In this document: positions 19,001 through 49,830 of the stretch, in pieces
How the letters are laid out: each line of letters begins with the position of its first letter
Position numbering within the stretch: the stretch's first letter is position 1
NCBI RefSeq assembly: GCF_000195315.1
Contig: NC_015389.1
Location: 124,001 to 188,000 of the forward strand
Direction: 5' to 3'
Origin: Coriobacterium glomerans PW2
GTDB lineage: Bacteria; Actinomycetota; Coriobacteriia; Coriobacteriales; Coriobacteriaceae
Length of the DNA stretch: 64,000 nucleotides
Notes under the pieces: generated by a model
Told to the model about the DNA's origin: nothing
Databases searched by the model: none
The model's input: the letters and a program-made list of their open reading frames with translations, nothing else
Program-made: the position numbers and the translations under genes

Positions 19001-19570
19001 ATGATGAGCAGCGGCGCGCGCGTAGTTGTAGGGGTATCGGGTGCAAGCGGGGCGGCGCTCGCCTTGGAGTGTCTGAGGTGCCTCGCTGAGACCGAAGTCG
19101 AGAGCTGCCTCGTTCTCTCCTCGAATGCAGAGCTCACGATCAACCAGGAGCTCGGTATGAGCGTCGAGGAGTTCTCAGGACACGCCGATCGCGTCTTCGA
19201 CAACCGGAACATCGGCGCCTCGATCGCGAGCGGCACATTCAGAACGGATGGCATGATCGTGGCGCCTTGCTCGATGAAGACGCTGTCCGGGGTCGCCAAC
19301 GGTTTCTCGGAGAATCTGCTGCTGCGGGCAGCCGATGTCACGCTCAAGGAACAGCGTCCGCTCGTTCTCATGGTCAGGGAATCTCCGCTGAGCGCGATCC
19401 ATGTCGACAACATGGCCAAGCTCGCCCGTATTCCGGGTGTGGTTTTGATGCCGCCCCTGTTGACATTTTATAACGAGCCTACCAGCGTGGACGATATGGT
19501 GCACCATATCGTCTGCAAAGCTCTGCAGGTGTTCGATATCGAGTGCTCGGGTTTTCATCGCTGGTCGTAG
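19001..19570 (+). CDS. Flavin prenyltransferase, UbiX/LpdB family
   Basis: The predicted cytosolic protein of 189 residues starts with a Rossmann-like FMN site (VVVGVSGASGAALALE) and has the family blocks VAPCSMKTLSGVANGFSENL, LRAADVTLKEQRPLVLMVRE and PLSAIHVDNMAKL. UbiX-type enzymes attach a dimethylallyl group from DMAP (or DMAPP) to reduced FMN, making the prenylated FMN needed by UbiD enzymes such as the LpdC-type protein at 16628. It corresponds to LpdB of lactic acid bacteria. It follows the DUF554 gene by six bases with only a weak ribosome site (GGGG), suggesting coupling. ATG at 19004 is an alternative start. Confidence 0.87.
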   Translation: MMSSGARVVVGVSGASGAALALECLRCLAETEVESCLVLSSNAELTINQELGMSVEEFSGHADRVFDNRNIGASIASGTFRTDGMIVAPCSMKTLSGVANGFSENLLLRAADVTLKEQRPLVLMVRESPLSAIHVDNMAKLARIPGVVLMPPLLTFYNEPTSVDDMVHHIVCKALQVFDIECSGFHRWS

Positions 19571-22851: not shown

Positions 22852-24930
22852 TCAGGGTTCAGCCAATTCGGTCCCGAATGCATCCAGGGCATCTTTTGCA
22901 GCGGCGTAGCTCGGATCGCTGGCAAGATCCTCCTCATGTGCCGGTAGATCGCCCTTGATCTGGTCATAGACCAGATCGACGTATGCCTTGGCACCGGCTT
23001 CCGACAGATGGGTGCCGTCGCCATCGAACAGATCCCCCTTGCCGGCGCTGTATCCGAACCAGTCGATGACGCGCACGTTGGGATAGCGCTCCCTGGCTTT
23101 GGAGATCGCCTCGTTTGTCGGAGCGACCCACGGCTGCCGACTGCGCGTGTTGACGAATACGACGACGCGATCCTTCCCGACATCTGACATGAGCGCGTCG
23201 ATCTGCTCGTCGCTCACGAGGCCGTTCGTCCCGAGCGCGAACACCGCGATCTTTCCCGCGAGCTTCTGGGCGACGTAGGACTCGTACTGGGTGGTCCCGA
23301 CTTCGAAGCGGCGGTTCTTCGCAGCGTCGATATGCCCATGCGGAAAGCGCTGTTGGAACTGGGGCACGCAGCGCAGCGACACGGAGTCGCCGATCATGAG
23401 GACGTCGTAGGCACCCACCGGAAATCCATCGGCGTCCTCGGCCGCACCGCCTGAAGGATTGTTCGCGGCTTCCGGCGGGGGAGCCCCATCCGCCTCGGCG
23501 GGCGCATCGAGCGCGGCCGCGCCCTCATCGCTCAGTGCCGAGGTGTTCGGCACGAACGCCACTCCGCCGACAGCGACGAGCAGCGTGAGTCCCGCTGCGG
23601 CGAGCATCGGTGCATGCGCGTGCCCCCATTCGGGAAGCGAGAGCGCGCCGCAGCGAAGCTCGCGAACGAGTGAGCCGAACGCCCCGATGCGGAAGGGCGT
23701 CTCGATGAGACGATATGAGATCTGAGCCGCCGCGATGACGACACAAACCTGGGCGACCATGAGCCACCAGGGCGCCGCCTCGATGCTCGACGAGGGATTC
23801 ATGAGCACAAGCAGGGGAAAGTGCCACAGATAGATCCCGTAGGATCGCTTGCCGATCCAAACAAGGGGCGACAGCGAGAGACAGGCGCCCAGCAAGCTCT
23901 TCGGCTGTGCGCACGCCGCTATGAGCGCAACCGCGAGAACGGAGCACAGCAACGTACCCCCTCGATATTGAAATGCTGTATAGCCGTTGGTATACGCGAG
24001 CATGAACGCGAGCCCTGCCAGGCTCGCCAGTCCCATGAGATCGAGCATCCCGTCTCTTCGCGTCGCCTGAGTCCGGACTCGGGGTGCTTCGTGCGCGGAG
24101 CGTCCGTCCCCGCGCTTCCGAATCAGGTGGAGCGCGCGCAAGAGACCGGTGAAGCGCATCTCCGTCTCGGGAAGGAATGCGAGCCAGGCGCCGAGCAGCA
24201 ACGAGAAGGCGCGCGTGTCCGTGCCATAGTAGACGCGGCTCGGATCCACCGAGGGATTGTACAGAGCGATCATGGCCACAGCGGAGACGAGTGAGAGACA
24301 CAGCACCATCCGTCTGATGATCCGGCGGCTCACACCCAATCTGAGCATGATGAGCAGCAAGGGAGGCCAGACGAGATAGAACTGCTCCTCGATGGCGAGC
24401 GACCAGAAATGCGTGAGAGGGGAGGGATCTCCCAGCGCGTTGAAGTACGAGATGTTATGAGCTATCTGCCACCAGTTGTTGAAAAACAGAAGAGAGGGGA
24501 GGATATCGGGGCGCATCTTCGTGAGCATGACATGGTTGAACGCCGTGCACAGCGCGATGGTCACCACGATGACGGTTGCAATCGCGGGAACCAGACGTCG
24601 AATGCGGCGCAGCCAGAACCTTGGAAGATCGATCTGGCCGGTGCCTGCGTATTCACTTAGGAGCAAACGTGTGATCAGATAGCCTGACAGAACGAAAAAC
24701 ACGGTGACACCGAGCATGCCGCCTTGCGCCCAAGGCAGATTCAAATGGTAGAGAATGACCGCGAGGACCGCAAGCGTCCGGATGCCATCGAGTGCGGGAA
24801 TATAGCGCGATCGATGCGCTGCGGAGGTGGAGTCGGGTTTGATGACGGACGCACCTGCGCGCGTGCCGCTCACCGTCTTGGCTCTGCTGTCGATACCTCT
24901 TGTTCGCTCCATAGTCATCCCAAGTTGCAT
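22852..24930 (-). CDS. Acyltransferase-3 / SGNH fusion, OatA-like O-acetyltransferase
   Basis: The predicted membrane protein of 692 residues has an N-terminal acyltransferase-3 domain (RYIPALDGIRTLAVLAVILY, about ten helices up to residue 450), then a proline/alanine linker and an extracytoplasmic SGNH domain with the block I motif MIGDSVSLRC and block V motif DGDGTHLSEAG (catalytic Asp-x-x-His). Such fusions move acetyl groups across the membrane and O-acetylate peptidoglycan muramic acid (OatA) or other wall polymers, giving lysozyme resistance. It is convergent with prfA, 25 bp apart. Starts at the second or third Met (24918, 24912) are equally plausible. Confidence 0.85.
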   Translation of the reverse strand: MQLGMTMERTRGIDSRAKTVSGTRAGASVIKPDSTSAAHRSRYIPALDGIRTLAVLAVILYHLNLPWAQGGMLGVTVFFVLSGYLITRLLLSEYAGTGQIDLPRFWLRRIRRLVPAIATVIVVTIALCTAFNHVMLTKMRPDILPSLLFFNNWWQIAHNISYFNALGDPSPLTHFWSLAIEEQFYLVWPPLLLIMLRLGVSRRIIRRMVLCLSLVSAVAMIALYNPSVDPSRVYYGTDTRAFSLLLGAWLAFLPETEMRFTGLLRALHLIRKRGDGRSAHEAPRVRTQATRRDGMLDLMGLASLAGLAFMLAYTNGYTAFQYRGGTLLCSVLAVALIAACAQPKSLLGACLSLSPLVWIGKRSYGIYLWHFPLLVLMNPSSSIEAAPWWLMVAQVCVVIAAAQISYRLIETPFRIGAFGSLVRELRCGALSLPEWGHAHAPMLAAAGLTLLVAVGGVAFVPNTSALSDEGAAALDAPAEADGAPPPEAANNPSGGAAEDADGFPVGAYDVLMIGDSVSLRCVPQFQQRFPHGHIDAAKNRRFEVGTTQYESYVAQKLAGKIAVFALGTNGLVSDEQIDALMSDVGKDRVVVFVNTRSRQPWVAPTNEAISKARERYPNVRVIDWFGYSAGKGDLFDGDGTHLSEAGAKAYVDLVYDQIKGDLPAHEEDLASDPSYAAAKDALDAFGTELAEP

Positions 24931-25702: not shown

Positions 25703-26389
25703 TTAGCGCTTGGCACAGCCGTATTCGAGATAGTATGCCTCGAGCGCCCGGCGACGCTCCTCGTCGATGATGATGCGGCCGCAGACCTCGCGATTCGATA
25801 GGTACGCTATGACCTCGTTCATATCGACGATAGAGGTGACGGGAAAGCCGTAGCGCTTCTCGATCTCGCGCTGCGCGCTGATCCCACCTTCCCGTCCGAC
25901 CTCCATGCGATCGAGCGATACGATGAGTCCGCGGATCTCCACATCGGCGGCGGCGGCGATGATGGGCTGGGTCTCCTCGATAGAGCGACCCGAGGTGGTC
26001 ACATCTTCAACTATGATCACGCGATCCTTGTCTCTGAGCGCCGATCCCAACAGTTCACCAGCGTCGGCACCATGATCTTTTGTCTCCTTTCGGTTGGCGC
26101 ACCAACGCACCTCGATTCCATAGAGGTCATGCAGGGCTGTCGCGGTTGTGACAGCGAGTGGAATTCCCTTGTATGCTGGTCCGAACAGAACGTCGAACTC
26201 AAGACCGAAGCGTTCGCGGATGGCCTTGGCGTAATACTGACCCAGACGTTTGAGCTGCCCTCCTGTCACATAGGCTCCCGTATTCAGAAAAAAGGGCGAT
26301 CTCCGTCCGCTTTTCAGCAAAAAATCGCCGAATCTGAGCGCATCGCATTCGATCATCAGCTCAATGAATTCGCGCTTGTACGCCTCCAT
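25703..26389 (-). CDS. pyrE: Orotate phosphoribosyltransferase
   Basis: The predicted cytosolic protein of 228 residues contains the PRPP-binding motif VIIVEDVTTSGRS, the substrate loop LKSGRRSPFFLNTG and the catalytic-loop segment ETKDHGADAGELLG. It joins orotate and PRPP to orotidine monophosphate in pyrimidine synthesis. ATG at 26389 (MEAYKRE) is chosen because AAAGGAG then lies six bases away; an ATG six bases earlier touches the ribosome site. No other pyr genes are nearby. I see no clear PyrR-type attenuator in the 200-nt upstream region. Confidence 0.93.
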   Translation of the reverse strand: MEAYKREFIELMIECDALRFGDFLLKSGRRSPFFLNTGAYVTGGQLKRLGQYYAKAIRERFGLEFDVLFGPAYKGIPLAVTTATALHDLYGIEVRWCANRKETKDHGADAGELLGSALRDKDRVIIVEDVTTSGRSIEETQPIIAAAADVEIRGLIVSLDRMEVGREGGISAQREIEKRYGFPVTSIVDMNEVIAYLSNREVCGRIIIDEERRRALEAYYLEYGCAKR

Positions 26390-26755
26390 AGGCATCTCCT
26401 TTCGCCGGGTTCGGTCCTCCGGGTTCCACTCGTGCATATCGCCAACAGCTTAGCAGGGATTTGCATCGATTGGGTCGCCGCGCCCGAAAGACATGCGACA
26501 GATCGCGCTGACGGGGGCGAGAGGCAGATGCTCCCTTATGCATGGTGGTTGAATCTCGCGATGAGAGCGTTCTCTGTCTCCTCTCGATCTTCGATACGGT
26601 AGAATAGCCAAGGTTCATTGCATTCGTATCGTCTCGGCGCGAAGTTCGCTTCGGGCCGATCCGCAGGCCTGGGCCGAAGACGCGCGGGCTGCGTTGACAC
26701 CTTGCGCAACGGGTACAACACGATTGGTCGCAACGATGCGACTGAAAGCAGATTG

Positions 26756-26787
26756 AAGGAGGTGAGACATGGACGGAAGTCCATGTC
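26756..26787 (+). promoter_or_regulatory. Strong SD and GNRA-capped hairpin in the mgtA leader
   Basis: AAGGAGGTGA (26756-26765) matches the 16S anti-Shine-Dalgarno almost perfectly. Immediately after it, GACATGGAC (26766-26774) pairs perfectly with GTCCATGTC (26779-26787) around a GGAA tetraloop. The left arm contains the ATG of an upstream ORF (26769), so folding would hide the start codon. Confidence 0.6.
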
Positions 26788-26876
26788 GAGACGTCTGTGA
26801 TCCAGCCGTATCGATGCTTGCCCATGGCTTGATAGCTGGATGGGAGGTGCGTCATGATGATGCTCAAGACGAGTGA
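26769..26876 (+). CDS. Putative 35-residue upstream ORF overlapping mgtA start
   Basis: The frame begins MDGSPCRDVCDPAVSMLAHG and ends at TGA 26874-26876, overlapping the mgtA start at 26854 by 23 bp in a different frame. Its Shine-Dalgarno is far stronger than average. The layout recalls leader peptides of Mg2+ transporters in Enterobacteria (MgtL), but the sequence is unrelated as far as I can see. It could couple or attenuate mgtA translation. Confidence 0.5.
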   Translation: MDGSPCRDVCDPAVSMLAHGLIAGWEVRHDDAQDE

Positions 26877-29724
26877 CATTTTAAAAGAGCTCTCCCGGAC
26901 CCGTCGCGCCGCAGCAGGTAGGGATAGTCGCGGTCGCGTGCATAGCGCTCACGCGCAGAGAGCCGCCTCACGGGTCGCTCCTGTCGGGGAGCTTGATGAG
27001 CGCGTCGTTTTCGCGGCCCGTCACAGCGTCGTCGACACCCTGGCCCGCATGGGCACGAGCGCTCAGGGTCTGTCATCCGGTGACGTCGAGGTAGCTCGAG
27101 ATCTCTACGGCAAAAATTCCGTCACACACGCCAAAGAGGACAATTTGGCGAAGCGTCTGCTCGACGCATTCGTCAATCCCTTCACCGCGATCCTAGCCGT
27201 GTTGGCTCTGGTCTCGCTGTACACGAACGTGATCGCCGCCGCACCGACCGATAGGGATCCCTCGACGGTGATCATCATCGCGATCATGGTCATCATATCC
27301 GGCACGCTGCGCTTCACCCAAGAGACGAAAAGCGGAAACGCTGCAGCGAGCCTGCAGAAGATGATCACTACGACCTGCACCGTTCTTCGCGAGGGGAAGG
27401 AGCAGGAGGTACCCTTCAGCGATCTGGTCCCGGCCGACATCATCAGACTCTCCGCCGGGGATATGATTCCGGCCGATTCACGTGTCATGGAGGCGAAGGA
27501 TCTGTTTGTGAGCCAGTCCTCACTCACCGGAGAGAGCTCGGGGGTTGAGAAGACCTCTGCTGAGCTCCCACCCGTTCGCGGCCATCGAACCTCGCTGACC
27601 ATATCGGACTGCGACAACATCGTATTCACGGGCACCTCGGTTCAAAGCGGCAGCGCGACGGCGGTGGTGCTGGCCACCGGGAACCAGACGAGTCTCGGTC
27701 AGATGGCACGTGTGCTCGACGCCAAACCTCCGCAGACGAGTTTCGACCGGGGAGTGGCCGACGTCTCGCGCGTGCTCGTGCGCTTCATGCTCGTGATGGT
27801 GCCGATCGTGTTCGTGATCAACGTCATCACGAAACAGAACTGGATGGATGCCCTGCTGTTCTCCGTGTCGATCGCGGTGGGCATCACACCTCAGATGCTA
27901 CCGGTGATCGTGACCACCTGTCTGGCCAAGGGCGCGACATCGATGTCCAAGCAGAAAGTCATAATCAAGAACCTCTCGGCCATTCAGAACCTCGGAGCGA
28001 TGGACATCCTGTGCACCGACAAGACCGGGACGCTCACCGAGGATCACGTCGTGCTCGAGCGGCATCTCGATGTGCTTGGACATGATGACGACTCGGTGCT
28101 GGGGCTCGCCTTCCTCAACAGCTACTATCAGACCGGCCTCAAGAACCTCATCGACCGGGCCGTCATCGAGCGCACCGATGAGCTGGCTTATTGCCCGGTG
28201 ATCAGCGATGAGGAGGGCACAGTGGAAGCGGTTCCCGAGAACCCCATCGCGTGCCTGCGAGATCGCTATCACAAGGTCGATGAGATCCCGTTTGATTTCG
28301 ACCGACGTCGCATGAGCGTGGTGGTGGCTGATCGGGAGGGCAAGACGACGCTGGTCACGAAGGGTGCAGCTGAGGAGATCCTGTCAGTTTGCTCAAGCGC
28401 TCGCATACACGGGCAGAACCGCCCCCTCACCTCGAAGCTGCGCGCCGATATACGCGCCAGGGTCGCCGCACTCAACGCCGATGGCTTGCGCGTCATCGCG
28501 CTGGCGAGCAAGAAGGAGCCCAGACCCGTGGGCGAGTTCTCGACAGACGACGAGTGCGAGATGGTGCTCATGGGCTACCTCGCGTTTCTTGATCCTCCGA
28601 AAAGCACCGCGGCAGCGGCGATCGCTGCGCTTCACAGCCATGGTGTCGGCGTCAAGGTGCTCACCGGCGACAACGATCGCGTCGCCGCGGCCGTGTGCAA
28701 TAAAGTGGGCCTGTCACCGGACGATCTCATCCTCGGAAGCGAGATCGACGCCCTCTCCGACGAGGAGCTGGCAGAGCGCGCCGAGAAGACGCAGCTGTTC
28801 GCGAAGCTCTCGCCGCTTCAGAAGGCGCGCGTCGTCCGCGTGCTACGCGAGTGCTGCGGTCACACGGTGGGCTATATGGGCGATGGCATCAACGACGCTG
28901 CCTCGATGAGAGCGAGCGACTGCGGCGTCTCGGTGGACACGGCAGTCGATATCGCGAAGGAATCCGCTGACATCATTTTGCTCGAGAAGGATCTCATGGT
29001 CTTGGACCACGGCATATTGGAAGGTCGGCGCACATACGGCAACATGATCAAGTATATCAAGATGACGGCGAGCTCGAACTTCGGTAACGTCTTCTCCGTT
29101 TTGGTCGCGAGCGCGTTTCTGCCCTTTCTTCCCATGACGGCATTGCAGCTCGTTTTGCTCTCGCTCATCTACGAGATCTCATGCGCGGCGGTTCCCTGGG
29201 ACCATGTCGATTCGGAGTTCGTAGCTCGTCCGCGTACCTGGGAGGCGCGCTCCATCGTCAAGTTCATGGTCTGGTTCGGCCCGACCAGCTCCATCTTCGA
29301 CATCGTGACCTACGCTTTGCTATTCGGTGTGATATGTCCTGCGGTGATCGGTTCGAGCTGGGCTGCGCTGGCGGCATCAGCGGGCACCGCGGCCGCAGCG
29401 GGTCTCGCGTCCCTGTTCGCCGCAGTCTTTCAGAGCGGGTGGTTCATAGAATCGATGTGGACCCAGTCGCTGATCGTGCACACGCTGCGCACGCCCAAGA
29501 TCCCGTTCATTCAGAGTCGCGCCTCCGCACCGCTCATGGTGCTCACGTTCTCAGGCATCGCTATCGTGACCGCGCTGCCCTTCACGCCGCTCGCCCCATT
29601 TCTGGGTCTGGCACCGTTGCCTCTGTCCTTTTTTGGATGGTTGCTTCTGATCGTTGCGGGTTACCTTCTGCTCGCGAACACGGTCAAGATTCTCTATATT
29701 CGTCGCTTCGGCCAGTTGCTCTAG
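26854..29724 (+). CDS. mgtA: Magnesium-importing P-type ATPase
   Basis: The predicted membrane protein of 956 residues is a P3B-type ATPase. Motifs: TGES phosphatase loop (SLTGESSGVEK), phosphorylation site CTDKTGTLT (Asp near residue 389), KGAAEEI nucleotide-binding motif, TGDND and MGDGINDA hinge motifs. Ten helices are predicted, with the C-terminal MgtA/B-type cation domain. It imports Mg2+ when external levels are low. The N-terminus (about 45 residues) is basic. ATG at 26854 follows GGGAGGTG; two further ATG codons follow at once. The overlapping upstream ORF and hairpin suggest post-transcriptional control. It is convergent with the HAD gene. Confidence 0.92.
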   Translation: MMMLKTSDILKELSRTRRAAAGRDSRGRVHSAHAQRAASRVAPVGELDERVVFAARHSVVDTLARMGTSAQGLSSGDVEVARDLYGKNSVTHAKEDNLAKRLLDAFVNPFTAILAVLALVSLYTNVIAAAPTDRDPSTVIIIAIMVIISGTLRFTQETKSGNAAASLQKMITTTCTVLREGKEQEVPFSDLVPADIIRLSAGDMIPADSRVMEAKDLFVSQSSLTGESSGVEKTSAELPPVRGHRTSLTISDCDNIVFTGTSVQSGSATAVVLATGNQTSLGQMARVLDAKPPQTSFDRGVADVSRVLVRFMLVMVPIVFVINVITKQNWMDALLFSVSIAVGITPQMLPVIVTTCLAKGATSMSKQKVIIKNLSAIQNLGAMDILCTDKTGTLTEDHVVLERHLDVLGHDDDSVLGLAFLNSYYQTGLKNLIDRAVIERTDELAYCPVISDEEGTVEAVPENPIACLRDRYHKVDEIPFDFDRRRMSVVVADREGKTTLVTKGAAEEILSVCSSARIHGQNRPLTSKLRADIRARVAALNADGLRVIALASKKEPRPVGEFSTDDECEMVLMGYLAFLDPPKSTAAAAIAALHSHGVGVKVLTGDNDRVAAAVCNKVGLSPDDLILGSEIDALSDEELAERAEKTQLFAKLSPLQKARVVRVLRECCGHTVGYMGDGINDAASMRASDCGVSVDTAVDIAKESADIILLEKDLMVLDHGILEGRRTYGNMIKYIKMTASSNFGNVFSVLVASAFLPFLPMTALQLVLLSLIYEISCAAVPWDHVDSEFVARPRTWEARSIVKFMVWFGPTSSIFDIVTYALLFGVICPAVIGSSWAALAASAGTAAAAGLASLFAAVFQSGWFIESMWTQSLIVHTLRTPKIPFIQSRASAPLMVLTFSGIAIVTALPFTPLAPFLGLAPLPLSFFGWLLLIVAGYLLLANTVKILYIRRFGQLL

Positions 29725-39900: not shown

Positions 39901-39972
39901 GGATGTCAAAGAGCGCGCGCGCCCTGATCGCGCTCTGATCGCGTGGAAGCTCGTGGATCCAAGATGCGTTTC

Positions 39973-40003
39973 GGGACGGCAGATCATCTGCCGTCCCGTT
40001 TTT
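39973..40003 (+). terminator. Rho-independent terminator of clpB
   Basis: GGGACGGCAG (39973-39982) pairs perfectly with CTGCCGTCCC (39988-39997) around a five-base loop. After one G, TTTTT follows. A second, weaker AGAGCGCG/CGCGCTCT hairpin precedes it at about 39909-39936. Confidence 0.9.
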
Positions 40004-48308: not shown

Positions 48309-48384
48309 GCCTCCGTAGCTCAGGGGATAGAGCACCGCTCTCCTAAAGCGGGTGTCGACAGTTCGAATCTGCCCGGGGGCACCA
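48309..48384 (+). tRNA. tRNA-Arg (anticodon CCU)
   Basis: The 76-nt sequence folds as a full cloverleaf: acceptor stem GCCTCCG with CGGGGGC, a D-arm with GCTC/GAGC, anticodon stem CCGCT/AGCGG with loop CTCCTAA giving anticodon CCU, and a TTCGAAT T-loop. CCA is encoded at 48382-48384. It decodes AGG. The region 3' of it lacks ordinary genes for 1.5 kb, which suggests use as an integration site. A terminator follows at 48393. Confidence 0.95.
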
Positions 48385-48593: not shown

Positions 48594-48979
48594 CTGATCG
48601 CCGGCCCGTCGGGCCGGCGATCAGCCCTCGGGAGCGCCCGCCCCCGCCATGGCCGCCATGGCCATCACGCCTCGCAGCGCGACGCTCCGGTCCCGCTGCG
48701 CGGAACCTGCGCCCGGTCGCAGGGGCGGAATCCCCGCCGGGGATGTCCGTCCCCGCTCCCTCTCGCTCCCTCTGCTCGGAGTCCCCGCCGGGGACGTCCT
48801 CGCGCCGCTCGCTCACCGTGCTTGCAAGATATGGATTCGTCCTCACAAACCGTCGTTCCTCCGGTTTGCGAGGACGAATCAATCTTGTCCTGCGCGAATG
48901 CGCAGGAAGGGGAGAACCGCTCGCTACGGCTCGCTCTCTCCAAGAGAAGAGGGCCGATCGGCTCGCACGCCGTCGGCCC
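48594..48979. repeat. Cluster of strong hairpins and direct repeats, possible structured element
   Basis: Within 390 bp there are: a 14-bp perfect stem with a three-base loop (48594-48624); two 18-base direct repeats (48731-48748 and 48782-48799, 17 of 18 identical) each holding TCCCCGCCGGGGA; a long stem of about 24 pairs (48825-48852 with 48862-48887); an 8-bp stem TCCTGCGC/GCGCAGGA (48888-48907); and GGGCCGA/TCGGCCC (48951-48979). No convincing protein is encoded. It may be a structured RNA or a genome-specific repeat element. Confidence 0.6.
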
Positions 48980-49728: not shown

Positions 49729-49796
49729 TTTGAGAACAACATACACGCCGGACTGTCTGAAAGACAATCACTGCGTATCGCTTTCCCTCACTTATT

Positions 49797-49830
49797 CGGG
49801 ACCTTGTTCACAAGGTCCCGAAGGCTTTTT
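49797..49830 (+). terminator. Terminator-like hairpin ahead of the pilin gene
   Basis: CGGGACCTTG (49797-49806) pairs perfectly with CAAGGTCCCG (49811-49820) around a TTCA loop, and TTTTT follows at 49826-49830. It lies 140 bases before the pilin start, so it either ends an upstream transcript or attenuates the pilus operon. Confidence 0.75.

Follow-up and report, generated by a model that had tools for sequence, protein, structure and literature searches.

A probable translated leader ORF in cis-control of mgtA: a compact member of a leader family found before Mg2+ pump genes in Coriobacteriia and Bacillota

The leader ORF and its RNA structure at the mgtA locus

The window, i.e. the whole 64-kb stretch of DNA that was analysed (G000:C1:124001-188000 of a single-contig genome of 2,115,681 bases), carries at 26854-29724 a gene that passes the NCBIfam models TIGR01524 and NF011702 and is thus a Mg-translocating P-type ATPase gene, mgtA. 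Its start could be at 26854, 26857 or 26860, where three ATGs follow one another. Since the upstream neighbour, pyrE (25703-26437, minus strand), is divergent from mgtA, the 5' end of the mgtA mRNA must lie within about 330 nt; a promoter scan returned two sites against 1.4 expected, none of them usable. The features considered below are the following, with the basis of each call in brackets.

26756..26765, plus strand: Shine-Dalgarno (SD) sequence of the leader ORF, AAGGAGGTGA (10-mer present once in the window)
26769..26876, plus strand: leader ORF, 35 codons plus stop, with GAC2, AGT4 and CGA7 (ORF call and family conservation)
26766..26787, plus strand: hairpin 1, 9 bp with a GGAA loop, pairing the leader ribosome-binding site (RBS) with codons 4-7 and covering the leader start codon (fold, stem scan and synonymous recoding)
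26790..26853, plus strand: predicted hairpin 2, in which the mgtA SD is paired with leader codons 8 on; core ATCCAGC 26800-26806 with GCTGGAT 26835-26841 (fold)
26842..26849, plus strand: mgtA SD, GGGAGGTG (sequence)
26854..29724 (start at 26854, 26857 or 26860), plus strand: mgtA, Mg2+-translocating P-type ATPase, 956 aa (NCBIfam models)

An earlier note on this DNA had pointed to a near-perfect SD in front of a 35-codon ORF overlapping mgtA by 23 nt, and both are indeed present. The SD lies 3 nt from the ATG and its 10-mer is single-copy in the window, both strands considered; the ORF (MDGSPCRDVCDPAVSMLAHGLIAGWEVRHDDAQDE) stops 23 nt inside mgtA when the gene is counted from the first of its three ATGs. 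The 9-bp GNRA-capped hairpin with the start codon in its stem was also found as described (GACATGGAC-GGAA-GTCCATGTC). Perfect stems of at least 9 bp with loops of 3-8 nt occur at six sites in the window (13 rows when alternative registers are included), versus 0-4 rows in each of 10 dinucleotide shuffles of the window: a 9-bp hairpin is therefore uncommon, yet not unique in the window. The five remaining sites, whose perfect stems measure 9-14 bp, are 19490-19513, 22957-22977, 39972-39998, 48594-48624 and 49795-49822; the one starting at 48594 follows the single Rfam tRNA of the window (48309-48381) at a distance of about 210 nt.

The contribution of codon choice was assessed on 1000 versions of the leader in which the protein was fixed and the codons were sampled anew according to their usage in mgtA. 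The start-codon hairpin was equalled in 2 of the 1000 recodings, and the minimum free energy of the leader region (-56.3 versus a mean of -48.2) in 7. The fold of 26740-26890 has a z-score of -3.1 and contains, besides hairpin 1, the predicted hairpin 2, which was absent from the earlier note and which stops one base before the first mgtA ATG. With five different 5' ends, the probability of hairpin 1 was always 1.00; that of hairpin 2 ranged from 0.04 to 0.99 depending on the end chosen. Pairing of the window leader codons with the mgtA RBS was better than in the synonymous controls (p = 0.03), and pairing of the leader RBS with leader codons 8 on showed no excess over them (p = 0.38): the window leader hides its own start with the adjacent codons 4-7, in hairpin 1, and not with later codons. 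A ribosome-footprint calculation on the window leader showed no clear sign of the mgtA SD being opened.

The absence of an M-box core, also claimed before, held. The Rfam search at the window locus gave no M-box or other match at the gathering score and, with E up to 10, a chance miRNA match only, i.e. nothing credible.

Conservation of the frame and of the early codons in relatives

MgtA matches at E <= 1e-200 were obtained in 27 of 65 genomes of the family, in 99 of 396 genomes of the class and in 64 of 140 genomes of the family of G189, which we take to be the Atopobiaceae. The upstream DNA was examined for 99 Coriobacteriia mgtA loci and for the 80 loci of a second collection, mostly Bacillota; the partial matches (G211, G344, G116, G095 and G269) and the genomes found only in the search of the G189 family were excluded from these sets. 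Leaders were selected in two ways. A fixed rule took the first ATG located 40-420 nt upstream of mgtA and preceded by a strong SD, whatever the peptide. A set of 125 loci was compiled by eye among SD-led ORFs, partly from the appearance of the N-terminus; because this choice biases the counts of acidic residues, those given here come from the fixed rule.

The fixed-rule leader was present in 75/99 Coriobacteriia and 45/80 other mgtA loci, and missing from the remaining 24 and 35. Among distinct ORFs (de-duplication removes relatedness only in part), an Asp or a Glu was found at positions 2-4 in 48/52 for Coriobacteriia and 37/38 for the others, and AGT was present as an in-frame serine codon among codons 3-8 in 38/52 and 30/38, respectively, versus 0-1 in the other frames. 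The earlier note had proposed to follow the reading frame in relatives, and there it is kept: at 71 of 72 Coriobacteriia ATG starts, picked by a similar rule, the frame is open for at least 18 codons, versus 38 for the +1 frame and 14 for the +2 frame. The leader closest to that of the window is from Collinsella (MDGSPCRDVC versus MEGSPSRKTC, with 32/43 nt identical from the SD on), and the two have M-[DE]-G-S-P-x-R-x-x-C in common. The window leader carries the marks of the family: strong SD, acidic residue at 2-4, AGT at 3-8 and open frame. The same genome has a second mgtA (L002, G000:C1:511973-517630), 56% identical and with the same SD-start block; the two copies of the pattern AGGAGGTGRGACATGGAYG in the genome are each at an mgtA leader, that of the window and that of the paralogue.

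Codon usage indicates constraint on more than the peptide. AGT makes up 46/91 of the serine codons at leader codons 2-12 in Bacillota and 78/141 in Coriobacteriia; later in the leader its share drops to 10/76 and 10/58, and at codons 2-12 of mgtA to 0/11 and 1/39, respectively. The shift towards T is peculiar to AGY: at codons 2-8 of the Coriobacteriia leaders, the T-ending share is 75/98 for AGY, 22/65 for Asp and 5/14 for Cys. TCC is avoided in leaders, and TCG as well in Coriobacteriia. Likewise, CGA accounts for 25/52 of the arginine codons at codons 2-12 of the Coriobacteriia leaders versus 1/83 at mgtA codons 2-12. Over-use at these positions is not confined to AGT: in 61 distinct Coriobacteriia leaders it is also strong for GAA (Glu), AAA (Lys) and, again, CGA (Arg), all three of them rare in the mgtA genes of those genomes. 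A CGAAGT hexamer was considered as an RNA motif and dropped as too rare (2 and 7 cases). Serine represents 21-22% of the residues at leader codons 2-12, where V, L, I, F and M are under-represented. Among distinct Coriobacteriia leaders, Ser2 is encoded by AGY in 19 cases and by TCN in 6. The passage from one to the other takes two substitutions, which, together with the open frame and the conserved early residues, argues that the reading frame and the first residues are both under selection. Related leaders also differ by in-frame length changes (L157/L159 and L146/L149).

Beyond their first codons the leaders are diverse: lengths vary from 10 to 60 codons, the C-terminal halves differ, and the 8 leaders tried against Pfam and NCBIfam gave no match. 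The median gap between leader and mgtA is 69-146 nt in the three groups of the compiled set; 5 of its 125 leaders overlap mgtA (L001, L138, L053, L055 and L070), and the window leader is therefore an unusual, compact form. The idea that its exact hairpin would be conserved in relatives did not survive: a perfect start-codon hairpin of at least 6 bp is present in 6/125 leaders, and one of 9 bp in the window leader alone.

Of the 16 Bacillota loci scanned, 14 have an M-box (RF00380) ahead of the leader (the exceptions being L064 and L076). An M-box was also found in 6 of 17 further loci picked mostly for showing no clear leader, and in 2 of the 42 Coriobacteriia loci scanned: the paralogue L002 and L038, the mgtA locus of a Coriobacteriia MAG. 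Since leaders occur with and without it, leader and M-box are separable, and most Coriobacteriia scanned retain the leader without a recognisable M-box. In L002 the M-box (L002:979-1137) precedes a leader of the same family, and between them lies a terminator-like hairpin with its T run; this mgtA paralogue would have two Mg2+ controls in series.

Pairing between leader, spacer and mgtA

The pairing tests were run on the by-eye leader set, in the choice of which pairing was not a criterion. The first test compared, with synonymous recodings, the pairing of the leader RBS with leader codons 8 to the end (p <= 0.05): it was passed by 21/40 Bacillota and 30/67 non-Collinsella Coriobacteriia leaders, and by 0/17 Collinsella leaders. 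In the second one, a swap test, the partner of each locus was compared with those of other loci after removal of row and column means, the leaders being de-duplicated on 8 residues. For the leader RBS and the distal leader codons it gave 0/2000 permutations in 38 Bacillota as well as in 58 Coriobacteriia, and this co-variation indicates a tendency of the leader, in either phylum, to cover its own start with later codons. Most relatives thus cover by longer-range pairing the start that is closed by hairpin 1 in the window.

The swap test supported two more helices in 29 Bacillota, between a spacer anti-SD and the mgtA RBS (0/2000) and between leader codons 2-12 and the spacer (0/2000); the negative control, in which the distal leader of Bacillota was set against the mgtA RBS, gave 1164/2000. 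With both spacer helices supported, leader codons and mgtA SD appear to compete in Bacillota for one anti-SD (e.g. L054 and L096): judged from co-variation, and in Bacillota only, the anti-SD has two alternative partners, the mgtA SD and leader codons of roughly 4-11. Two of the helices in Bacillota cross, and the polarity of the switch therefore hinges on whether these are mutually exclusive. For 56 Coriobacteriia loci, pairing of the spacer with the mgtA RBS was unsupported (184/2000), as was that of leader codons 2-12 with the spacer (swap 1407/2000 in 56 loci; mean z -0.03 in 65 loci), so that a link from leader to mgtA by pairing is unsupported there. The AGU codon is able to pair with the anti-SD (ACUUCC) in Bacillota; no pairing partner was found for it in Coriobacteriia, and therefore the codon itself may matter in that class.

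Two candidates were discarded. Pairing of the Atopobiaceae leader-hairpin loop with a conserved UCCCGG before the mgtA SD was convincing by eye, and the swap test gave 1500/2000. Intrinsic terminators in the leader-mgtA spacer, noted in 20/82 Coriobacteriia loci by a loose scan with no shuffled control, were not kept as a general rule. Collinsella has features of its own: a long stem pairs leader codons 6-13 with a T-rich stretch, and counts as one observation since the 17 loci are near identical. In L012 and other Collinsella the leader-mgtA spacer contains a long inverted repeat, ACCACCACAAAGG ... CCTTTGTGGTGGT; similar copies, REP-like in look, are present elsewhere in L011 and L014.

A probable leader ORF controlling mgtA, its alternatives and known systems

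A strong SD, and relatives in front of the same pump gene in many gut bacteria from two phyla, make 26769-26876 probably a translated switch that sets the level of the pump. We consider it likely, with due reserve, that it is a cis-acting leader ORF controlling mgtA, and a divergent and compact member of a Coriobacteriia/Bacillota family of Mg2+ P-type ATPase leaders. On comparative grounds the conservation of the leader is well supported, be it for the ORF family, the frame, the early acidic residue, the early AGU serine codon or the pairing of the leader RBS. Family conservation also lends support to the proposal of the earlier note, a leader-ORF switch for a Mg2+ transport gene lacking an M-box. 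From these features we infer ribosome drop-off, Mg2+ as the signal and the polarity of the switch.

The constraint could bear on the RNA only, the element being a riboswitch, for Mg2+ or another ligand, in which the ORF is incidental or tolerated. Pairing within the leader does exceed that of the synonymous controls, and the window fold is stable (z of -3.1). However, an RNA element would account neither for the restriction of AGT to frame 0 (38 and 30 versus 0-1) nor for a frame open in 71/72 cases, and the use of two codon families at Ser2, the in-frame length changes, the near-perfect SD and the lack of an Rfam match at the window locus all argue against it, which makes it quite unlikely. 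A product that works as a small protein, as MgtS, MgtR and MgtU do, would fit an N-terminus conserved across two phyla. It is very improbable given the depletion of V, L, I, F and M at codons 2-12, the dissimilar C-terminal halves and lengths, the absence of any Pfam or NCBIfam match for 8 leaders, and constraints that act within the ORF at the codon and RNA levels. The abundance of serine at codons 2-12 evokes an attenuator in which ribosomes stall at Ser codons under shortage of serine (or of another amino acid). Yet AGT alone is favoured, TCC, and TCG in Coriobacteriia, being avoided, and the target is a Mg2+ pump; moreover, in the available extract of a B. subtilis study, it is the TCN codons that respond and not AGC or AGT (PMC3862929). 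Such an attenuator is scarcely credible.

A switch of the opposite sense is a more serious contender, though we regard it as rather unlikely: ribosomes paused late in the leader, or finishing it, would free the mgtA SD by coupling or re-initiation, and leader translation would activate mgtA. At the window locus, pairing between leader codons 8 on and the mgtA SD is predicted, and a leader stop 23 nt past the mgtA start permits opening and re-initiation; in Bacillota, a ribosome on the end of the leader would block the leader-RBS helix and leave codons 4-11 free. Against it, overlap with mgtA is confined to 5/125 leaders, and the median gaps of 69-146 nt make re-initiation unlikely as a common mechanism.

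In the leader-ORF reading that we favour, the strong SD would load ribosomes onto the leader, whose first 4-12 codons (acidic, AGU, often Pro or CGA) would be hard to translate, more so in low Mg2+. An abort or a pause at these codons would let the downstream codons shut the leader start; the freed leader codons would then capture the anti-SD, and mgtA would be translated. Were the leader read through to its end, the mgtA start would be kept hidden. In the window form, hairpin 1 would cover the leader start and the predicted hairpin 2, formed by codons 8 on, the mgtA SD; because the leader overlaps mgtA, a ribosome completing it would cross the SD and start of mgtA and terminate 23 nt into it. 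For the sign of the Mg2+ response we rely here on analogy with MgtL and MgtQ. A bolder proposal, tentative and somewhat doubtful, is that of a phylum-spanning leader class sensing Mg2+, or the state of the ribosome, through codon-specific failure of early elongation: after an acidic residue at 2-4 and an AGU mostly at 4-6, ribosomes carrying a very short chain would drop off in low Mg2+, the leader start would then be shut, and the leader alone, without M-box, would be the main Mg2+ control of mgtA in Coriobacteriia. If true, codon-specific sensing by AGU and not AGC would introduce a new principle among metal leaders. A leader family shared by Coriobacteriia and Bacillota, and often placed in series with an M-box, would by itself make ribosome-based control of mgtA far wider than the riboswitch picture suggests. 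The AGU at codons 4-6 is a directly testable codon signature.

Control of Mg2+ pumps by leader ORFs is familiar from Enterobacterales and similar bacteria; to our knowledge, translated leaders resembling MgtQ or MgtL have not been met before in Coriobacteriia or Bacillota. No description of the present leaders was found in open-licence PMC papers, and one may exist elsewhere. With the M-box they would share a cis-acting Mg2+ control located upstream of mgtA, but a covariance-model match is lacking at the window mgtA. The E. coli MgtL leader is also placed before mgtA, a Mg2+ transporter gene, and has early acidic residues; the part of its description available reports drop-off at EPDP in low Mg2+ and Rho-dependent termination (PMC11282234). 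As the earlier note had stated, no homology to MgtL is apparent: by eye there is no sequence likeness to the portion at hand, and the window ORF (MDGSPCRDVCDP) has no EPDP or other dense acidic/Pro motif of that kind, only scattered S-P and D-P.

The Salmonella mgtQ leader is closer. According to the accessible part of its report, it is an ORF of 8 codons between mgtC and mgtB in one operon, with a strong SD, Asp2 and Glu5, and alternative stems by which the mgtB SD is hidden or freed; when the ribosome is destabilised early, more mgtB is translated (PMC8092293). Given this close mechanistic precedent, the suggestion of a new type of Mg2+ leader is right only in part. As far as that partial account goes, the likeness covers a short ORF that is led by a strong SD and precedes the gene of a Mg2+ P-type ATPase, an Asp2, a proposed action on translation, and alternative stems with an anti-RBS covering the downstream SD, such stems being supported here in Bacillota and not in Coriobacteriia; in the window a single sequestering hairpin is predicted. 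Set against the same account, the second acidic residue of mgtQ is at 5, whereas in the window leader Asp2 is followed by Asp8, and the AGU signature does not figure in it; the present family differs further in that the leader RBS is itself sequestered by leader codons, and in that the ORF often stands behind an M-box, in Bacillota, or alone, in Coriobacteriia.
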